Program-made: the position numbers and the translations under genes | Notes under the pieces: generated by a model | Databases searched by the model: none | What the model was told of the DNA's origin: nothing | What the model saw: only the letters and a program-made list of their open reading frames with translations | In this document: piece by piece, positions 14,669-23,107 of the stretch | How the letters are laid out: the number at the start of each line of letters is the position of its first letter | Position numbering within the stretch: the first letter of the stretch is position 1 | From: a virus | Length of the DNA: 27,885 nt | IMG/VR virus record: IMGVR_UViG_3300044712_000897 | Location: 1 to 27,885 of that record | Reading direction: 5' to 3' (one strand)

Positions 14669-14678
14669 TGGATTTAAA

Positions 14679-14698
14679 GGGGCGGGTCTCCCCGCCCC
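14679..14698 (-). terminator. Strong hairpin, attenuator or terminator
   Basis: Minus strand GGGGCGGG-GAGA-CCCGCCCC, a perfect 8-bp GC stem closed by a GAGA (GNRA-type) tetraloop and followed by TTTAAAT. It lies between the decoration-like gene (ends 14707) and the 105-residue gene (starts 14668). It could reduce transcription beyond the abundant head genes, protect the upstream mRNA 3' end, or act as a spacer between an upstream SD and the start at 14668. Confidence 0.6.
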
Positions 14699-14706
14699 TC
14701 CTCCAC

Positions 14707-15075
14707 TTACGCCAGGCCAGAACCGACAGCGACCGTCATGAACCCAATAATTTGGGTTCCGTTCGCGGCCGAGTTCGCATCAAACGTGATAACACTGCCG
14801 GCCGCCACAGTAACCGGAGTGTTGGTCCCGCCCATGGGGATGGACTTCCACGTCCCCGGCGTGGCTTTGGTCGCACAAGCCAGCGCGGTGATCACGCCGC
14901 TGCCGTCATCGTTGATATCCAACGTCAAACCGGTGTCGTCCGCCGACGGCGCAGCCGAGACCTCCAAAATGGTCACGTCAAACGGCAGCGTAATCGCCGC
15001 ATAGGCATCCCCCAGGGCCGCAGCCGCACCCGGATAAACTGCCGGGAGCGGGATCGTAATCAATCGCTCGTTCAT
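14707..15075 (-). CDS. Decoration-like head protein
   Basis: 122 residues; ATGA overlap with the CHAT peptidase gene and an AGAGGG motif seven bases upstream. Beta-rich with conserved-looking strands (DVTILEVSAAPSADDTGLTLDINDDGSGVI, GTWKSIPMGG, AGSVITFDANSA) and no long helices, membrane segments or enzyme motifs. Such small jelly-roll-like proteins after the capsid gene usually sit on the outside of the head. The hairpin after its stop may stabilise this part of the mRNA. Role as decoration protein is inferred from size, composition and context. Confidence 0.65.
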   Translation of the reverse strand: MNERLITIPLPAVYPGAAAALGDAYAAITLPFDVTILEVSAAPSADDTGLTLDINDDGSGVITALACATKATPGTWKSIPMGGTNTPVTVAAGSVITFDANSAANGTQIIGFMTVAVGSGLA

Positions 15076-15611
15076 CGTTTTTCCCTCTTTTCCATGAGTT
15101 TGAATTTCATGGCGTCCGCATCGGCCGCCCGATAGGACGAAAGCGCCAGGCGCGCTTTCGACAGAAACAACGCTTTTTTTGTGCCAATCCCGGCTTCCAT
15201 GAGGTTGAGAATGTACCGGGCCAGTAGATCAGCCCCAATCACCCGCTGAGCGGCCGCATAGTTTGGGCCACTACCGGCGATGACCGCGGAGGCCCCCGCA
15301 GCATAGAAGGCCTCCGGGAATTCACTGTCAGCGCCGTTGCAGGATGCAATCACCACCACGGCACCACCCACATTGGATCTCCGCACCGTCTCAGCTGTCA
15401 GGGCCTCGATCTGGTTTCCATCGTCTCCCTCGCCAAACCACACATCAGGAAGCCCATCAATGCCATGGAGCCGGATGTAGATCAGATCATGGCCGGCCAG
15501 CTGGGCCGGGTCCAGGTCACCAGTCGGGGGACTGGTGACCGGATCCACTCCCAAAGCGTTTTTTACAGCCTCACGGGCTGCCTGAGTGCAGTAGGCGAAA
15601 ACATCCATCAT
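15072..15611 (-). CDS. CHAT/caspase-like (clan CD) cysteine peptidase
   Basis: 179 residues; starts at the ATG at 15611 through an ATGA overlap with the membrane-anchored protein gene (second ATG at 15608). Seen: strand DLIYIRLHG with His49, then LTAETV (71-76), then strand VGGAVVVIASCNGAD with Cys91, followed by FYAAGASAVIAGSG and a helix before LLARYILNLMEAGIGTKKAL. This order (hydrophobic strand ending in HG, strand ending in A/S-C-N-G, then AGA-x-x-VI) is the core of CHAT/caspase-fold peptidases, with the His/Cys dyad 42 residues apart. There is no extra sensor domain; it is a minimal catalytic domain. It sits in the capsid cluster beside a TM-anchored protein that may be its substrate or anchor (inference). 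Known CHAT proteins act in host defence complexes and cell death, so a role in capsid processing or host manipulation would be new to me. Confidence 0.82.
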   Translation of the reverse strand: MMDVFAYCTQAAREAVKNALGVDPVTSPPTGDLDPAQLAGHDLIYIRLHGIDGLPDVWFGEGDDGNQIEALTAETVRRSNVGGAVVVIASCNGADSEFPEAFYAAGASAVIAGSGPNYAAAQRVIGADLLARYILNLMEAGIGTKKALFLSKARLALSSYRAADADAMKFKLMEKREKR

Positions 15612-16129
15612 TTTCCCGCCACCCAATAGAGCTTCGTGAGCGTGGTGACATCGCCCGCCTCGATTCCCACCGTAAAACTGGTAGCGTTACTGGTAAGAAT
15701 GTAGGCTGTCTGCGTCAGTCCATACGTGTAATTGGAACTGACGGAGATCGCCGTCGGCGTCGTAGTAAAACCGTGAGCGATCAACGTGCCACTGATCACA
15801 TTGGACGACGCGCCGTAATGCACCGCCCCGGTAAACGAATCAGAGCCCGCCACAATCGTGGCCCCCGTCACCGTCCCCGACGCGGAAATGCTCGAAAAAG
15901 ACGCGGCCCCGCTCACCGTCGCATTACCGCCAACGGACAGATTTTCGGTTACCGCCAGGTCGGTGATGTGGCTGGTTCCCATCATCTGGGTGTCCGTTGC
16001 CCCGGCCTCATTCAGGGCGGTTGCCTCGATCCCGAGACCGATCAGGCTCAGGATCAGGGCCGCTACCGCGACGAACTTCTCCCATGCAAACCGCTGTTTG
16101 ATCAAAACAGGCTTTTCCTTGTCTTCCAT
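15608..16129 (-). CDS. Membrane-anchored beta-repeat protein
   Basis: 173 residues from ATG 16129, with GAGGTGA four bases upstream overlapping the capsid stop; the longer in-frame start at 16186 lies inside the capsid gene. Seen: a charged N-terminus (MEDKEKPVLIKQRFAWEK), one transmembrane or signal-anchor helix (about 19-40, FVAVAALILSLIGLGIEATAL), then Ser/Thr/Gly/Ala-rich strands in a repeated pattern (LAVTENLSVGGNATVSGAASF, ISASGTVTGATIVAGSDSF) and a C-terminal beta domain (HGFTTTPTAISVSSNY ... LTKLYWVAGK). The repeats resemble beta-helical fibre or adhesin sequence. A membrane anchor on a protein encoded directly after the major capsid gene is unusual. It overlaps the CHAT gene by ATGA. 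Function unknown; virion protein or peptidase partner are the main options. Confidence 0.7.
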   Translation of the reverse strand: MEDKEKPVLIKQRFAWEKFVAVAALILSLIGLGIEATALNEAGATDTQMMGTSHITDLAVTENLSVGGNATVSGAASFSSISASGTVTGATIVAGSDSFTGAVHYGASSNVISGTLIAHGFTTTPTAISVSSNYTYGLTQTAYILTSNATSFTVGIEAGDVTTLTKLYWVAGK

Positions 16130-16139
16130 GCCATCACCT

Positions 16140-17795
16140 CTACACGTTGCTCTTGTGCAGGGGGCGGAAGTCCGAGACCGGAGCACAATTGTAGGTGGAA
16201 GAGAACCGGTACGACATCTGCCGTACCTTCCACCTCATTTCGTCATTGGTAAACATGGCCCCGCCGTCCTCGCTCCCGGCGCTCACCAGCATCGGGACCC
16301 GATTCCCGCGCAGGAACAACTGCCAGATCGCGGGGAAAATCGCCGGATCGGCGACCAAGCTCCAGTCGTTGGTGTCGGTCCATTCGGGAACTTTGACCAC
16401 GTCGAATTTCTGGAAGAAGGGGTTGATCGAGTTGTCCGTCACGCCGGGCTCTTTTTCCGAGTTGCGGATCTGCAGCGCCGTGGTCTCCAGGTCCGCGGGA
16501 ACCAGGATGTACCGAGGTTCGATCATCAGCCGCCGGCCAGCCCCCAACGGCTGATCCGTCTGCTTCAACATAGCCGTGCGCGCAGCCTTGAACGCCGCGA
16601 ACGACAGCGCCGTAGTCAACAGATTGGCGTGACCGCCAGGCGTCCCCACGGCCGTCGCATTGAAAAGCGCACCGGTGTCCGAAAGGACCGGTCCAGTGTT
16701 GGAGTTCGTGGTAAACACAGCCGCCACGCGGGCCGAGAGCGTGTTGTACCATGAATCAGCCAGCTTCCGGGGGATGTTGCGGATCACCGACAACTTGTCA
16801 CGCATCATGGCCTCGATGGTGACCCCCACGTAGTTGCCGTTTTTGACAAACTGCGCGGTTTCCTCATCGTCCTTCATGATGAGCGGCAGATAGGTCTGGC
16901 CTTCGTCGACCTCATTCAATATCGACAGCCCATAGACGCGCACCAGGGTCGCTTCGTCGGGGGTATCGAACTCATCGACCGTGACGATTTTGTTCCACCA
17001 TTCATCGCGCACCGAATAATCGGCCGCGAGAATGAGGTTGAGGGCATTTTTCGTGATCGAGCTCAGGCCGGAGGACATGATCGCCTCCAGAGCCCGATTA
17101 TCAACCATGGGATCTCCACCCAGCAGGTTGTAAACCAGATCGGAGAGCCGGCGGGTGCCATAGTTCGGCCGACCCGCATTGACCCAGGCATTCCAGGACT
17201 CGGGGCGGCGGCCGCTCACATAGTCCTTATCGATGGCTTCGATGGCCCGCAGACGTTCGCTTCCCACCATCAGGCGGAGCAGGTCCATCTGGGCCTTGTC
17301 GATCGGAGCCAGGGCGCCCCGCGTGTCCACCCCGCGCTGCTGGCCAGCACCAGCCGGCCGACCCGTGGGATCATGGGCCGCCTGGGCTTCCTTGGACCGC
17401 GCGATCACCCCATCCAATTCGGGCTTTTTGAAAACGCGCCCCGTGAACGCAGCCTCCACAACGCGCCGCTGGGCCGCATCCAGCCCCGAGGCTTCCAGCG
17501 CATCCCGCAGCATCAGCTGGCATTCCATCTGATGCAGGCGGGACTCCAGGCTCTCCTGAGCAGACGGGGCCGCAGCGGCCGGGGTTTGTACCGGGGCGGT
17601 GGCGGTGGTCGGTGCAGTAGCCTGGGTGGCGGATTCCTGAGATTCCATCCCCGGCTGCTTGTCTTTGCCGGGGGCACAGGCTTCCATCCCGGGACCCTCC
17701 CCACCATTGGGGGACAACATCTGAGCTGCAGCGGCCAGATTGGCCGCCGTTTGCCCCAGCAATTCCTGGAGCTGCTTCAATTGCATTTCGTCCAT
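16140..17795 (-). CDS. Nested in-frame product: scaffold plus major capsid protein
   Basis: Within the 965-codon frame, ATG 17795 (residue 415, MDEMQLKQLQELLGQ) is preceded by GGGAGGG with a 7-base spacer, as good as any true ribosome binding site in this operon. It falls exactly where the protease domain ends and the scaffold-like helix begins. Initiation here would make a 551-residue scaffold-capsid protein without 2H or protease, allowing many capsid subunits per protease copy. Phage lambda uses an in-frame internal start the same way (C and Nu3). Usage is inferred. Confidence 0.55.
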   Translation of the reverse strand: MDEMQLKQLQELLGQTAANLAAAAQMLSPNGGEGPGMEACAPGKDKQPGMESQESATQATAPTTATAPVQTPAAAAPSAQESLESRLHQMECQLMLRDALEASGLDAAQRRVVEAAFTGRVFKKPELDGVIARSKEAQAAHDPTGRPAGAGQQRGVDTRGALAPIDKAQMDLLRLMVGSERLRAIEAIDKDYVSGRRPESWNAWVNAGRPNYGTRRLSDLVYNLLGGDPMVDNRALEAIMSSGLSSITKNALNLILAADYSVRDEWWNKIVTVDEFDTPDEATLVRVYGLSILNEVDEGQTYLPLIMKDDEETAQFVKNGNYVGVTIEAMMRDKLSVIRNIPRKLADSWYNTLSARVAAVFTTNSNTGPVLSDTGALFNATAVGTPGGHANLLTTALSFAAFKAARTAMLKQTDQPLGAGRRLMIEPRYILVPADLETTALQIRNSEKEPGVTDNSINPFFQKFDVVKVPEWTDTNDWSLVADPAIFPAIWQLFLRGNRVPMLVSAGSEDGGAMFTNDEMRWKVRQMSYRFSSTYNCAPVSDFRPLHKSNV

Positions 17796-19037
17796 TTGAA
17801 AACCCTCCCGTTTTCTGATGGTAGTGATGAGCTCGGATTCAACCAAGCGGTCGATCCCTCCGCCCGCTCCCGGCCGGGCGACCAGATCGGCCGAGAAGAT
17901 CCTCTGAAATCCCCGAGATTTTTTATACCGTTGTCCGTTGTAGAGCACCTCCTGCTCATTGTCTGGGATGGTGTCGATACTCAAGCCGCCGATTTTGTCG
18001 ACGACTCCCAGGTCCCAGAAATTTTTAAGTTTATCCGCGATACCGCGGTCACCCACTTTTAAAACCCCCTTGAGCTTTCTCTCTTGGGCATCCCACCAGG
18101 GATCCGTAATTACGCCGACCAGCTCCTTTACCATGGAGCGCATCCCTGCCCGATCTGCAAATTCCTCGTCCGTCAGATGGTTGTCATAGACCTGACAACC
18201 ATCCCATCGGGGAACGCTTTCTTCCAGGCCGGCACACGAATAGAGCCGCCGATTGAGTGACTGTACGAATTCCTCACCGTCAATCATCACGACCTCGTCG
18301 GGGGATTTCGCCCCGATGAGCGTGACTTCCCAGGTGCTGCCATCGAAATCCGGCCCGTGGGGTTTCAGATCTGCCGGCTGGGCCTCGCGCCAGGACTCGC
18401 GCGCTTCATGAATCGAGGTATAGCAGATGGCGATGGCCCCCTGCTTGTCTTTTCCCTGTTTCATCACATCTTTCACGCACCGGTCCATTTTTCCCCACTG
18501 GGACTGGGGAAGGTTAGCGTAAACTTCCTGGGTCCGCAGATTGTACTCAACCCGACCATCGCCCCAGGCGAGGGAAACCGTTGAGAGCGTCATCTCGTCG
18601 TAATGCTCCCACGCCGGCATGGGGGCATTACCGGGAATGTAGGCCAGGGTAATATGAGGAATGAATCCATGCGTTTGCTCGCTCATATCGACCCCCAGGG
18701 CCTCGACCAGCTGCTGACGCCAGGCCGGCAACTCTGGGGAGTCGAACAGCGCCACAAAGGCGTCCTCGCCGTTGTCTCCGACTCCTATGAATCGGGCCAG
18801 CCCACCGATAGTCCCAGAGATCGGTGCATGAGACTCAACGAACGTTTTTAGGGCCTCCTCGATCCGGGGACGCTGCTCTTGCATGGCTGCGGATTCCCCC
18901 AAATAGACCAGCGTCAAGTGCAGGTCTCCGGCCGGCTCACCGCCAGGGATTGCCATTTTCTGGGCCATTTCCGAGCCGATAAAAAATGCCACCATGGCGC
19001 CCGTATGCCCGGCCGCCGTTTCCATTGAACGTTTCAT
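16140..19037 (-). CDS. Fusion: 2H phosphoesterase - prohead protease - scaffold - major capsid protein
   Basis: 965 residues from ATG 19037, set by an ATGA overlap with the MuF gene and GGGAGGA upstream; the extension to 19133 is rejected. Domains seen: 2H phosphoesterase (about 14-175) with both motifs, HLT (40-42, in DLHLTLVYLG) and HIT (128-130, in PHITLAYIP); Cys motif CVKDVMKQGKDKQGAIAIC (187-205), frequent in phage prohead proteins; prohead-protease-like domain (about 225-405) with His287 (YDNHLTDEE), LVGVITDPWWD, Ser353 (IGGLSID) and FSADLVARPGAGGG; scaffold/delta-like region (about 415-570, Gln/Ala/Pro-rich); and HK97-fold-like capsid protein (about 573-965) ending in MFTNDEMRWKVRQMSYRFSS. 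Protease-capsid fusions are known in some phages; the additional 2H domain is unusual. Self-cleavage at protease/scaffold and scaffold/capsid junctions is inferred. Assignment of the catalytic residues is by motif only. Confidence 0.85.
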   Translation of the reverse strand: MKRSMETAAGHTGAMVAFFIGSEMAQKMAIPGGEPAGDLHLTLVYLGESAAMQEQRPRIEEALKTFVESHAPISGTIGGLARFIGVGDNGEDAFVALFDSPELPAWRQQLVEALGVDMSEQTHGFIPHITLAYIPGNAPMPAWEHYDEMTLSTVSLAWGDGRVEYNLRTQEVYANLPQSQWGKMDRCVKDVMKQGKDKQGAIAICYTSIHEARESWREAQPADLKPHGPDFDGSTWEVTLIGAKSPDEVVMIDGEEFVQSLNRRLYSCAGLEESVPRWDGCQVYDNHLTDEEFADRAGMRSMVKELVGVITDPWWDAQERKLKGVLKVGDRGIADKLKNFWDLGVVDKIGGLSIDTIPDNEQEVLYNGQRYKKSRGFQRIFSADLVARPGAGGGIDRLVESELITTIRKREGFQMDEMQLKQLQELLGQTAANLAAAAQMLSPNGGEGPGMEACAPGKDKQPGMESQESATQATAPTTATAPVQTPAAAAPSAQESLESRLHQMECQLMLRDALEASGLDAAQRRVVEAAFTGRVFKKPELDGVIARSKEAQAAHDPTGRPAGAGQQRGVDTRGALAPIDKAQMDLLRLMVGSERLRAIEAIDKDYVSGRRPESWNAWVNAGRPNYGTRRLSDLVYNLLGGDPMVDNRALEAIMSSGLSSITKNALNLILAADYSVRDEWWNKIVTVDEFDTPDEATLVRVYGLSILNEVDEGQTYLPLIMKDDEETAQFVKNGNYVGVTIEAMMRDKLSVIRNIPRKLADSWYNTLSARVAAVFTTNSNTGPVLSDTGALFNATAVGTPGGHANLLTTALSFAAFKAARTAMLKQTDQPLGAGRRLMIEPRYILVPADLETTALQIRNSEKEPGVTDNSINPFFQKFDVVKVPEWTDTNDWSLVADPAIFPAIWQLFLRGNRVPMLVSAGSEDGGAMFTNDEMRWKVRQMSYRFSSTYNCAPVSDFRPLHKSNV
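17796..17809 (-). promoter_or_regulatory. Internal ribosome binding site at the protease/scaffold junction
   Basis: Minus strand GGGAGGG (17803-17809) followed by TTTTCAA and ATG. The Gly codons in this stretch encode REGF in the full protein, so the motif could be chance, but its strength, spacing and domain-boundary position argue for real use. Confidence 0.6.
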
Positions 19038-19963
19038 GCCATATCCTCCCGCCGCTTTACCTCGGCAGCGATGCGGCCGTCGAGCGATGATTTCGTAACT
19101 CCGATGGCCGGATGCACCGTTATTGGCCGACACCGGCAGTTAATCGTAAACCGGGGATCCGCCGTCGGATCGCCGGGATACATCAACTCATCCGTTCCCC
19201 GCGTGTCCTTCAGCACGAACGGCTGATTGACGGGGATGGGGTGGGCGTGATACTCCAAATGAGCCCGGATATGGGACTCTCGCGTCCTGCGGTCCGCCGT
19301 GGCCATCCAGGACTTCATCAAGCCGGGTACCGTCTCAGCCACTCGCTGCTGCTGGGCATAGCTGGACAAATTGAACGCCCGCTGCAGTTCAGTGCGCGCT
19401 ACCGCCTCCGCCCGGGCCGAAATTCCCCGCGCTACATCCGGCCGTGTGACGTAGCGGCCGGCCTGGTTCTCGGTCCCCAAGATGTACGTGATACGCTGCA
19501 TTACTTCGACGGGGGATTTCACGCCTACAATGGCCGCCCGCAGCTGGGCGCTTATCTGATCCCGCATGCTATCCCCAATCTGGCGGATCAGATCGGCGGT
19601 GTAATCGACAGCTGTATTCAACTGCGATAAACTGGGTGCGTTAAAAACCCCCTCGATGCCGGCGGCCCGCAGGGGGGCGGTGACTGAGGCGGCGCCAAAG
19701 TCTAGGGCCCCAGTTTTGGAATTCCGGATAGCGATCATGGCCCTCCGCTGAAAATCATCCACGTACCGCTGCAGGTTCTGGTCCAGTTCTCGCAGTCTCA
19801 TAGCCTCGCCGCTGCCGGCGGTCCCAATGTTGGCCGTGATTTGTTGCTGGAAATCACGGACGGCCCGCTGAATTTCGGCGGCGGTGGTATCCTCCAGGCG
19901 CCCATATCGGGCCGAGATTTTATTCAGCTGGGCCGCGAACCGCGCTTGCTCAGCGGTTGGCAT
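19034..19963 (-). CDS. MuF-like minor head protein (SPP1 gp7 family)
   Basis: 309 residues; CGGAGG six bases before the ATG, which lies 14 bases inside the end of the portal gene. Helical N-terminal two-thirds (AAEIQRAVRDFQQQITANIG, LRELDQNLQRYVDDFQRRAMIAI). The C-terminal MuF-type domain is about 180-285: RAEAVARTELQRAFN, then ADRRTRESHIRAHLEYH, then PGDPTADPRFTINCRCRP with the conserved Cys276-x-Cys278. This family binds the portal and is packaged in small copy number to aid head assembly or DNA exit. No toxin domain is appended at the C-terminus, which some MuF proteins have. Order portal-MuF-protease/capsid is canonical. Confidence 0.87.
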   Translation of the reverse strand: MPTAEQARFAAQLNKISARYGRLEDTTAAEIQRAVRDFQQQITANIGTAGSGEAMRLRELDQNLQRYVDDFQRRAMIAIRNSKTGALDFGAASVTAPLRAAGIEGVFNAPSLSQLNTAVDYTADLIRQIGDSMRDQISAQLRAAIVGVKSPVEVMQRITYILGTENQAGRYVTRPDVARGISARAEAVARTELQRAFNLSSYAQQQRVAETVPGLMKSWMATADRRTRESHIRAHLEYHAHPIPVNQPFVLKDTRGTDELMYPGDPTADPRFTINCRCRPITVHPAIGVTKSSLDGRIAAEVKRREDMA

Positions 19964-21641
19964 TCCAGGCCTCCGGGATCGGAGTAGCGCCCTGCGGCGT
20001 TTCGTCGCCGGGTTCCACCGGTGGATTCATACCGAACCAGGAGCCGGCCGCCGGCGGCGTGGGGTTGTTCTCTTCGGCCGCCTTCAATTCCCGCGCCACA
20101 TCGTAGTCAACCCCGAGTTCTTGCATCATTAGAGCCCAGGTCTGAGCGGCGGTCTCCTGCGTGATCCATTGCATTTCCAGAGCCGTTTGAAGCGACAGCG
20201 CCAGGTTGGACATGGCCGCCGTGACAGCGGTAATGTCCTTTGTGGTCATGCTGGGCATCGGGACGGAGATCTCCCGATCTTCGGGGGTTTCTGGGCGCCA
20301 CCGGCCGGCGATCTCGGCCTGATCGCGCACAAACTCACAGAGCGTGGTCAACATGTCTCCGATAATCCCCTGGTCGTGACTGAGGGATTTCCACGTCGGA
20401 TCCCCCTGGGCCTGGGCCGTAGCCCTGTTTGTCTCATCTCCGCTGCCATACCAGTGGGAGGGCAGCCCCAAACCGCCCAGGATGAAATCTAAAAGGGCCT
20501 TCGATGTCTCAATCGAGGGAACTTGTTTGAGGTCGGGGGTTTTGATTTCCCAAATCTCTTCCTCGTTATGAACGTTTATCGCCCCGTTTTTCGGGGGATT
20601 TTTCCGGATTTCCGCAGAACGCTTGGTAATATCCTGCTGTTGTCCCTTGAGGGTCACATCCCAAGAGAAGTAGCCGGCCCGCTGCTCTCTGTCGGCCAGA
20701 GAAAACAGCGTCTCATCCTGTGAGTCCAGCCAGTCGGCTTCCTGGAGTAGATCAGAGCTGCCAAAGCCCTGGTTGCTCACGGCATTGACTCTCTCGTAGA
20801 GGCAGGTTCCGCTGTAAGCGTCAAGACCGAACGAACGCAGCATGATCTCTTCCCACGGTTCCAGGTTGGCCTGATCGGCCGTCACCCACAAACCGCGCAA
20901 TTTCGTTGTTTTTACATCAGCGGGAAATGCATCGCGGGCCGGAACAACGACATCGTCATCTTTGCGAATCACCCGATAAACCCGGGTCCGATGATCCGCT
21001 TCCCAGGCGTTGATTTTTACCTGGGCCCGGATCACCACCGCCCAAATATCCAGCGCGTTCTCAGGGTGGAAAATCACCTGTTGGATCTGTTCCGGATCGA
21101 AATATCCAATCCGAACGCGACCGTCGGATCTCCGGACGTAGACCGGCAGGCACTGGGCCCCGAACAGGAACAACTGCAGCGCGAATTCCGACGAATGCCG
21201 GCGCATCCGGTTCTCATCCCAGAACTTTTTTAAAATCACCTGAAGCTGAGGGCTTTTCGCCTGCGGATCGACGGATCTGTCGATGACGTAATCTCGCTTG
21301 ATTTCCAGTGCCCTGTCGGCCACTGGATTCTCTTGCCATAACTGCCAGGCTCGCGCCATTGCCATGGCCGGATCAACGGCGAATTCCCGCGGCCCGTAGG
21401 AGGCCGAGCGGTATCCATAGCTGCGTAGGTCTCCGCTCGCCGGCTCATCATTCCGGGCATCCCGATACCCGTCCTGATAGGCCTCGCTGGATCGTTCCTC
21501 TACACGCTTCTCGACGCGGGCCATCTCGCTGGTATGCAACGAACGAGGAACGCCGCCCAGCGCGTCGATCGCGCGGGAGCGGGCGCTATCTGCGAATATT
21601 CGCAGATAAGACGGGCCTCGGATTTCTGATTTTTTACTCAC
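19950..21641 (-). CDS. Portal protein
   Basis: 563 residues from GTG 21641 through a GTGA overlap with the large terminase. Portal features: a wing/clip-like first half (IKRDYVIDRSVDPQ, LQLFLFGAQCLPVYVRRSDGRVRIGYFDPEQIQQVIFHPENA), a stem-like helix region and the second half ILGGLGLPSHWYGSGDETNRATAQAQGDPTWKSL, followed by a long helix (IIGDMLTTLCEFVRDQAEIAGRW) and a C-terminal crown-like Pro-rich tail. It forms the dodecameric DNA channel at the head vertex. The first 20 codons contain a 20-bp palindrome (21588-21607) that encodes RIFAD and is duplicated at 2342-2361. Confidence 0.88.
   Translation of the reverse strand: MSKKSEIRGPSYLRIFADSARSRAIDALGGVPRSLHTSEMARVEKRVEERSSEAYQDGYRDARNDEPASGDLRSYGYRSASYGPREFAVDPAMAMARAWQLWQENPVADRALEIKRDYVIDRSVDPQAKSPQLQVILKKFWDENRMRRHSSEFALQLFLFGAQCLPVYVRRSDGRVRIGYFDPEQIQQVIFHPENALDIWAVVIRAQVKINAWEADHRTRVYRVIRKDDDVVVPARDAFPADVKTTKLRGLWVTADQANLEPWEEIMLRSFGLDAYSGTCLYERVNAVSNQGFGSSDLLQEADWLDSQDETLFSLADREQRAGYFSWDVTLKGQQQDITKRSAEIRKNPPKNGAINVHNEEEIWEIKTPDLKQVPSIETSKALLDFILGGLGLPSHWYGSGDETNRATAQAQGDPTWKSLSHDQGIIGDMLTTLCEFVRDQAEIAGRWRPETPEDREISVPMPSMTTKDITAVTAAMSNLALSLQTALEMQWITQETAAQTWALMMQELGVDYDVARELKAAEENNPTPPAAGSWFGMNPPVEPGDETPQGATPIPEAWNANR
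21588..21607. repeat. 20-bp perfect palindrome, copy 2
   Basis: ATCTGCGAATATTCGCAGAT, identical to the copy at 2342-2361 and here extended by one base pair on each side (T...A). It lies within codons 12-18 of the portal gene. CGGGCGC occurs just before it, as at copy 1. Because it is inside coding sequence yet exactly palindromic and duplicated, selection for DNA recognition is likely. Confidence 0.85.
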
Positions 21642-23107
21642 CGTCCCCTCCGCCGTTGTGGTTTATAAATTTCTGGATCGACATCATTGTCGATCTCGCC
21701 GTCGGGATCGGCTGGCTTTAAAAGCCGCGCCTGGTGGGCAATAGCAATACTGTCTGCCCGATCGTCGTGCTCCCCCTCGGGAGCTGAGAGTGTTGAGCCC
21801 TCAATGCTGGCCAGCTGGAGATAGGTCTCCAGGCTGTGTAATAAAATCTCCGCTTCCCTCAGAGCCTGCGTGATACCGTCGTATAAAAGCACGTTCCCCA
21901 AGGGAGTAGAAATCCAACCATCTTTTCCGTCCCGACCGTGAATCAATTTGAGCCGCGAATGTTCAGCTATCCATTGCTGAACGGCGTGACCGTGATTATT
22001 CCGCTCCACCAATACCTGAGCGTTGTTGTACCATTTTCCGATTGCGTCGATCGCCGCCGCAAAAACAGCCGGCTGCAATCGGGCCGATAAAGCCGCCACC
22101 TCTTCGCCAGTCTCCATGTCCAGGACTGTCAGCGCCGACGGATCACTGGTAGGATTCCCCTCTGCCGGATCTGCCCCAATAACATATTGATGCCCGGGTT
22201 GTGGAACCTGATAAACCTCCAGAGCCTCGAAAATCGGGGCGTCTTCTGGTAGGTCAATCAGCGAAATAGGATCTCGCTCAAAAAATCTCGGCTTCAGGAA
22301 TGTTTCTGGTATCCGCTTGTCCGCCGATGACGGAGCCAGAGCCTCATCATCGGTGGCCGGATACTGCTCGTGCAAATCATCGAGATACCCAGTCCGAGCC
22401 AGGATTTCGGTTTTTTGTTTCCTGTACCAGGCCATTGTGCGCCCGGGCCGACCATACCACGGAACGAACACGGGGACCCAGTCCGTCTTTTTCTGTTTTG
22501 CTCCTCGGTAGATCTGCTTGAATTCACTGGCCGGCTTCTTTTTGTCTGACCTGCTAACTAGGATCATCCGGCCACCGTTATCGATGGTTGGCTTTACAGC
22601 TCTCATGAGCTGGTTGAGGTCTGGAACGAGATCGGCTTCATCGACAATGGCCAGGGTTGCGGTATACGAATCCCCGGCACTTGTCGGGAATGCCCGGGCA
22701 ATGCTCTCGTTGCTCAGTCTCCACTCGTGATCGTTGTCAACCTCCACCGAATCTGCCTGCAAATAGGAGGGAAGACGTTTGTACATCTTCTTCATTCGGT
22801 TTTTTAATAGGTCGACGGCCTCATCGTCGCGCCGGCTAAAAATCAATATAGAGGCCGATGCTCGAAACAGCATCAACCACAAAGCAAACGCGAGAACTAA
22901 CCACGAAAAACCGAGCTGGCGAGCCTTCAGAACTATCGTGAGCTTATTTTCAGAAATCGTTTTTAATGTGCTGGCTTGTGCTGGCCATAAACGGAATGGT
23001 ATCCACTCCCCGGCCTGCTGGGGATCATCAACCTGACAGTGCTTATGAACGAAGTAAAGCGGAGATTCCGAGCATCGCAGCCATTCTTCCTGCTCTTCCT
23101 CCGTCAT
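21638..23107 (-). CDS. Terminase large subunit
   Basis: 489 residues; ATGA overlap with the small subunit. ATPase domain: variant Walker A LKARQLGFSW (60-69), Walker B TLAIVDEADL (151-160, D156 E157), and a C-motif-like ILVSRS (182-187). Nuclease domain of RNase H fold: YVIGADPAEGNPTSDPSA with Asp313, VLVERNNHG with Glu369, and EHDDRADSIAIA with Asp448/449 near the end. Together these form the motor that pumps DNA into the prohead and cuts it. Length is normal and all key residues are present, so this gene appears functional. It is the best phylogenetic marker in the window. Confidence 0.95.
   Translation of the reverse strand: MTEEEQEEWLRCSESPLYFVHKHCQVDDPQQAGEWIPFRLWPAQASTLKTISENKLTIVLKARQLGFSWLVLAFALWLMLFRASASILIFSRRDDEAVDLLKNRMKKMYKRLPSYLQADSVEVDNDHEWRLSNESIARAFPTSAGDSYTATLAIVDEADLVPDLNQLMRAVKPTIDNGGRMILVSRSDKKKPASEFKQIYRGAKQKKTDWVPVFVPWYGRPGRTMAWYRKQKTEILARTGYLDDLHEQYPATDDEALAPSSADKRIPETFLKPRFFERDPISLIDLPEDAPIFEALEVYQVPQPGHQYVIGADPAEGNPTSDPSALTVLDMETGEEVAALSARLQPAVFAAAIDAIGKWYNNAQVLVERNNHGHAVQQWIAEHSRLKLIHGRDGKDGWISTPLGNVLLYDGITQALREAEILLHSLETYLQLASIEGSTLSAPEGEHDDRADSIAIAHQARLLKPADPDGEIDNDVDPEIYKPQRRRGR

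Follow-up and report, generated by a model that had tools for sequence, protein, structure and literature searches.

A predicted CHAT-fold peptidase family linked to a membrane-anchored stalk protein in phage head operons

Bacterial CHAT and caspase-like proteases are discussed almost solely as defense or cell-death effectors. What a protein of this kind might do in a phage head operon is the question raised by a short gene in the IMG/VR virus record IMGVR_UViG_3300044712_000897, the 27,885 nt of which make up the whole stretch of DNA analyzed here (hereafter referred to as the window).

Gene layout and predicted fold of the window protein

The minus strand of the window carries terminase, portal, Mu F-like, capsid, neck and tape-measure-like genes (Table 1). 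A preliminary description, made from the sequence, had noted in this capsid cluster a 179-residue, single-domain protein with a caspase-fold core, and both the open reading frame and its motifs are exactly as described there, with RLHG at residues 47–50, ASCNG at residues 89–93 and a subsequent AGASAVIAG. The gene lies just after the capsid ORF and a gene for a membrane-anchored stalk protein, and the reported coupling to both neighbors is likewise borne out: the stop of the upstream stalk gene overlaps the CHAT start by ATGA (GGGAAAATGATGG, AAAATGATGG), and a second ATGA overlap joins the CHAT stop to the start of the decoration-like gene that follows (AAACGATGAACG, CGATGAACG). The product may be the shorter of the two forms listed in Table 1, since homologues align from the second ATG. 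Judging from operon position, the CHAT gene is best read as being expressed late, together with the capsid proteins. The names given to the two neighbors hold in part, with "membrane-anchored" reflecting a hydropathy call (19-mer mean 2.17) and "decoration-like" agreeing with position and a small beta-rich make-up while finding no HMM support.

Table 1. Features of the CHAT locus in the window.
Feature	Coordinates	Strand	Remarks
CHAT/caspase-fold peptidase gene	15072..15611	-	179 aa; with the second ATG (15608) as start, 178 aa
Codon of His49, predicted catalytic His	15465..15467	-	invariant in 24/24
Codon of Cys91, predicted catalytic Cys	15339..15341	-	invariant in 24/24
Codon of Cys8, only other Cys of the CHAT protein, end of strand beta1	15588..15590	-	invariant in 24/24
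Membrane-anchored stalk protein	15608..16129	-	probable start at ATG 16129, preceded by AGGTGA; frame open to 16186
Predicted membrane helix of stalk protein	16019..16075	-	hydropathy
Q-M-M-G, window form of the juxtamembrane Q[EVTM]M[SG] motif	15977..15988	-	proposed recognition or cleavage site
Small beta-rich decoration-like protein	14707..15075	-	ATGA-coupled to CHAT gene; 13 IMG/VR relatives
Head ORF	16140..19133	-	N-terminal 2H phosphoesterase, prohead-protease-like region, major capsid protein (Phage_capsid_4, E=2.6e-25)
Terminase large subunit	21638..23107	-	marks the region as phage
Portal protein	19950..21641	-	

Two further features of the window concern the genes flanking this pair. 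Just 3' of the decoration-like gene, a GC-rich inverted repeat at 14675–14700 (GGGGCGGGGAGACCCGCCCC, coding strand) is followed by TTT and may be a terminator within this head operon. In the 997-aa head ORF, residues ~41–199 form a 2H phosphoesterase/2'-5' RNA ligase-like domain (PF13563, E=2.6e-10; weak match to the anti-CBASS protein Acb1, E=4.7e-4) that precedes the prohead-protease-like region and the capsid protein, all in one reading frame.

Profile libraries by themselves would have missed the CHAT assignment. The preliminary description had proposed a search against CHAT, C14 and C25 profiles; of these, only Peptidase_C25 (PF01364) returned a hit, which was sub-threshold (E=0.13, 11.9 bits against a cut-off of 23, residues 55–159) and confined to one member. 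The Pfam CHAT profile (PF12770) had no match in the window protein or in any of 21 members, the family being a divergent CHAT branch missed by curated HMMs. Pfam C14 had no match to the CHAT protein, and hhalign against two plasmid caspase-family proteins, a very small sample, gave a prob of 0.3. Searches of PHROGs, NCBIfam, PADLOC and PDB sequences yielded nothing convincing for the window protein, and the PDB search seeded with the family alignment returned only repeat-protein noise. The PHROG function "head maturation protease" found no match in the CHAT protein and was matched instead by the adjoining capsid ORF.

Structure prediction provides the assignment. An AlphaFold2 model built on 21 aligned sequences (pLDDT 90.7, pTM 0.89) is CHAT-like, as the preliminary description had claimed; the homologue alignment was needed, since the model from the single sequence (pLDDT 40.6) was unusable. 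CHAT structures occupy ranks 1–7 of a Foldseek search against the PDB, with no different fold among them, all with prob 1.00, E from 1.5e-5 to 4.9e-3 and query-length TM-scores of 0.54–0.65 (DdvA 8rot; SAVED-CHAT 8tl0; Craspase TPR-CHAT 7y84, 8d9f, 7zoq and 8d9h; Csx29 8eey). In an independent test at the sequence level, hhalign against ten plasmid CHAT proteins gave P=1.2e-4 (score 37.8, versus at most 19.0 in 30 column-shuffled controls) and aligned His49 and Cys91 with the CHAT His and Cys, respectively. The His-Cys spacing, which is 42 in the window protein and 36–54 across its family, fits those of the TPR-CHAT dyad (H585/C627, 42 apart; PMC9729208) and the Csx29 dyad (H615/C658, 43 apart; PMC10028731). 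By modeled fold and predicted His49/Cys91 dyad, the window protein belongs with the CHAT peptidases (clan CD).

Homologues and their genomic context

Used as a lone query, the window CHAT protein had no match in IMG/VR, GTDB genomes, INPHARED or PLSDB. Its family was reached through the decoration-like gene, which led to contig L015, where the syntenic gene encodes a protein 47% identical to the window CHAT, and alignment-based scans then identified CHAT homologues on a total of 23 other IMG/VR contigs, at the same kind of site. The resulting family comprises 24 sequences (23 different) with a lowest pairwise identity of 41%. All 24 share His49, Cys91 and Cys8 together with 28 other invariant positions (31 of 179), and the dN/dS ratio in five close CHAT pairs is 0.25–0.35. 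Neither of the two outcomes that the preliminary description had named as refuting it, another fold or a His and Cys that vary among homologues, was thus observed. The spread over 23 other contigs, the invariance of His49 and Cys91 at identities down to 41% and these dN/dS values indicate that the CHAT ORF is more than chance. In caspase-fold enzymes, an S1-pocket residue often lies at the end of strand beta1, as Cys8 does here.

Beyond this family, a two-sequence alignment detected no CHAT relative in GTDB species genomes, in a scan that relies on few peptide patterns and is non-exhaustive, and the CHAT consensus had no match in 50,697 phage records. The capsid relatives L002–L013 carry no CHAT gene by phmmer, and the FtsK-like and terminase genes have matches that are only remote and scattered.

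The CHAT gene is found behind either of two unrelated head modules. Where the head is Mu-like (L029–L031, L033–L046, L072 and L082), the capsid gene is followed by CHAT and then by the anchored stalk; where it is of the window type (the window, L015 and L032/L047), the capsid ORF is followed by the anchored stalk, then CHAT, then the decoration-like gene. The stalk gene is the only constant neighbor, adjoining CHAT in both orders wherever the sequence on that side can be read (L048 begins within the stalk gene, and the contigs L040, L041 and L046 stop short of a readable stalk). Stalk genes are also found in the absence of CHAT (L018–L022 and L024–L027). We read CHAT and stalk as a co-inherited two-gene cassette behind two unrelated head types. 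By context, the CHAT gene is not a defense gene: the protein is a single domain with no fused sensor (TPR, SAVED) and no PADLOC match, and its neighbors are head genes.

Individual loci show some additional features. In L033 (4408–7181), a Mu-like head is accompanied by a CHAT protein that groups with the window head type, although with weak support (58/90), and by an anchor (QEMGVT) resembling that of L032; the two-gene cassette may here have passed from one head module to another. Some CHAT-bearing phages also have genes in their head/neck region that by eye look glycosyltransferase-, sulfotransferase- and glycoside-hydrolase-like, namely L029 (11487–12092), L042 (10338–10991) and L031 (10158–11210).

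The stalk protein and its juxtamembrane motif

Each stalk protein combines a basic N-terminus and a single hydrophobic helix with a body that varies in length, is beta-rich and abounds in Thr, Ser, Gly and Asp. In all 19 CHAT loci with a readable stalk, a Q[EVTM]M[SG] motif follows the helix within ~3–15 residues. The motif occurs 21 times in the 77,115 aa encoded by the CHAT loci, versus 2.5 occurrences expected by shuffling, and every one of these sites lies just after a membrane helix, 19 of them in the stalks and two in a second anchored protein of L031 and L044. Other proteins were considered as motif-bearing targets and excluded, the motif being found only after membrane helices.

The 86,385 aa from 25 loci without CHAT, among them the homologous stalks of L018, L021, L022, L024 and L026, contain no copy of the motif. 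These motif-free stalk relatives are few (~5 distinct) and form one related group, so the association between motif and CHAT is not phylogenetically independent. The motif was also spotted before counting, in the same loci; a more independent test comes from motif-seeded scans of IMG/VR, in which five of five contigs retrieved with an anchor-motif DNA pattern bear CHAT, and all six retrieved with an anchor alignment are CHAT contigs, one of them new and with its CHAT gene then found by a later scan. Across 16 Mu-like loci, CHAT distances track those of the anchor (first 70 aa) with a partial r of 0.68 given the capsid, a value reached in 0 of 2,000 permutations.

The second anchored protein of L031 (9500–10066, plus strand) and L044 (5533–6063, plus strand) has the same membrane helix and a YQVM anchor, here fused to a domain that is encoded anchor-free in other loci. 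The anchor seems to be a portable module.

Both the constancy of the anchored stalk as a neighbor and its motif go beyond the preliminary description. Taken together, these sequence patterns suggest a dedicated pair in which the stalk is the partner of CHAT and probably its substrate.

Proposed function and alternatives

We favor, at a confidence slightly short of even, a reading in which the family consists of compact single-domain CHAT cysteine endopeptidases, produced late with the capsid proteins and forming a cassette with the stalk, which would be cut at or near its motif to free the stalk or fibre. Fold, dyad conservation, late-operon position, linkage and motif specificity come from sequence and model, and from them we infer catalytic activity, substrate, cleavage site and purpose of release. 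The predicted His49/Cys91 dyad would recognize the stalk protein at Q-x-M-[S/G], just past the membrane helix, and CHAT would cut at or near this motif; the cut would separate the stalk/fibre domain from its anchor, either for attachment to particles or for release at lysis.

A substrate encoded next door has a precedent in Csx29, which cuts the neighbor-encoded sigma-factor inhibitor Csx30 between residues 427 and 429, a cleavage blocked by deletion of Met427 (PMC10028731). This is a precedent and no proof for the phage pair, just as the co-inheritance of CHAT and stalk falls short of proving cleavage. The main objection to stalk cleavage is topological: the basic stalk N-termini predict an N-inside/C-outside orientation that puts the motif outside the membrane (L082 also has a lipobox-like LAGC), and no signal peptide is evident in CHAT. 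With the motif facing outward, cleavage might take place at lysis or before insertion, or there might be none, the motif serving instead as a binding site.

Among the alternatives, an active CHAT might cleave a host protein during infection, or after being packaged and injected, for instance to assist lysis, redirect host regulation or disable a defense, with the stalk linked to it for some other reason. This would agree with known CHAT proteases, which cut regulatory or effector proteins (Csx29 on Csx30; PMC10028731), and with an accessory distribution in which close relatives lack CHAT. It is unlikely, given that the sequence offers no pointer to a host target, that a late-operon position is ill-suited to early counter-defense, an earlier suggestion that gained no specific support, and that the exclusive link with a motif-bearing anchor is left unexplained.

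Head proteins were also put forward in the preliminary description as possible targets, and CHAT could act as an auxiliary maturation protease on capsid, decoration or scaffold proteins. The gene is always found near head genes, directly 3' of the capsid gene in all Mu-like loci, and in the window it is coupled to the decoration-like gene. Several observations weaken this suggestion and make it decidedly unlikely. A prohead-protease-like region or gene is already present in both head types (the Mu gpI-like assignment was made by eye), so a second head protease would be unnecessary for assembly, and L016, L017 and L023, all closely related, assemble the same head with neither CHAT nor stalk gene. 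Furthermore, CHAT divergence does not track that of the capsid once the anchor is accounted for (partial r of -0.19 in the 16 Mu-like loci), and the decoration-like gene is not adjacent to CHAT in Mu-like loci.

Catalysis itself may be questioned, since the Gly that follows the catalytic His in 18 of the 24 sequences, the window included, is replaced by Arg in four and by Ser in two. Together with a predicted topology that makes direct cleavage difficult to envisage, this would be compatible with an adaptor that has the CHAT fold but no catalytic activity and would bind the stalk anchor or serve as a decoy of host CHAT defense proteins. Such a role is very unlikely, as His49 and Cys91 both map onto the CHAT dyad and never vary while most positions do. 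Finally, a chance resemblance, with the family being some other Rossmann-like or flavodoxin-like group devoid of CHAT ancestry, could draw on the flavodoxins that rank below the CHAT structures in Foldseek (E ~0.01) and on the lack of significant Pfam and PHROGs matches, but it is extremely improbable in view of the seven top-ranking CHAT structures and a CHAT profile that aligns both catalytic residues.

Read as stalk-processing enzymes, the phage CHAT proteins resemble known systems in part. They share the fold and a His/Cys dyad ~42 residues apart with TPR-CHAT/Csx29 of Craspase (type III-E CRISPR), and like csx29 their gene lies beside that of a candidate substrate; unlike Craspase, they have no TPR sensor, no second CHAT subdomain and no CRISPR partner, comprise 179 aa in total and are encoded among phage late head genes. 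SAVED-CHAT (8tl0; E=3e-4, prob 1.00) has the fold in common with them, together with a SAVED sensor domain and a defense operon that they lack. More generally, the anti-phage CHAT systems (Craspase, SAVED-CHAT, CHAT-gasdermin) are distinguished by sensor fusion or a defense operon, neither of which is seen for the phage CHAT. The best structural match, the transmembrane anti-sigma factor DdvA (8rot; E=1.5e-5, 20% identity in the aligned portion), is a membrane protein of 897 residues, whereas the phage CHAT stands alone and the anchor resides on the neighboring protein. We read the Foldseek match as indicating a CHAT-like domain in DdvA, on which we found no paper in the open-access literature. 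C25 peptidases (gingipain, PF01364) belong to the same caspase-like clan, but the phage CHAT falls below their cut-off and has no C25 architecture.

Sortase/exosortase-type systems combine a short motif beside a membrane helix with a dedicated Cys enzyme. The phage pair follows a like logic, with a motif at the helix that co-occurs only with one Cys-peptidase family, and no homology is implied: its motif follows an N-terminal rather than a C-terminal anchor, the fold is unrelated, and the phage CHAT, unlike the sortase/exosortase enzymes, is not predicted to lie in or outside the membrane. Among viral proteins, two BFVD entries of 264–320 aa, as compared to the 179 aa of the phage CHAT, have similar predicted folds with weak scores (A0A8S5MXG5 from Myoviridae sp. 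ctWaE18, E=0.014; A0A1P8DJ94, E=0.046), so caspase-fold proteins in phages are not entirely unprecedented. Phage CHAT proteases are not described in any paper that we found in the open-access literature, and what is presented here is a new CHAT family, representing a known kind of enzyme in a new setting, the late head operons of phages.

The existence of such a family, invisible to Pfam, PHROGs, NCBIfam and PADLOC, means that viruses too use the CHAT fold. The linked juxtamembrane motif provides a concrete candidate substrate and cleavage site, which makes the function testable by expressing two short genes. The family would also supply small stand-alone CHAT enzymes for studies of catalysis without a sensor domain. 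A broader proposal, plausible if doubtful, is that of a phage motif-directed processing system in which a stand-alone CHAT would specifically mature or release anchored stalks marked by Q-x-M-[S/G], with the cassette moving between unrelated heads. If true, CHAT peptidases would here serve virus assembly or surface display instead of defense or cell death.
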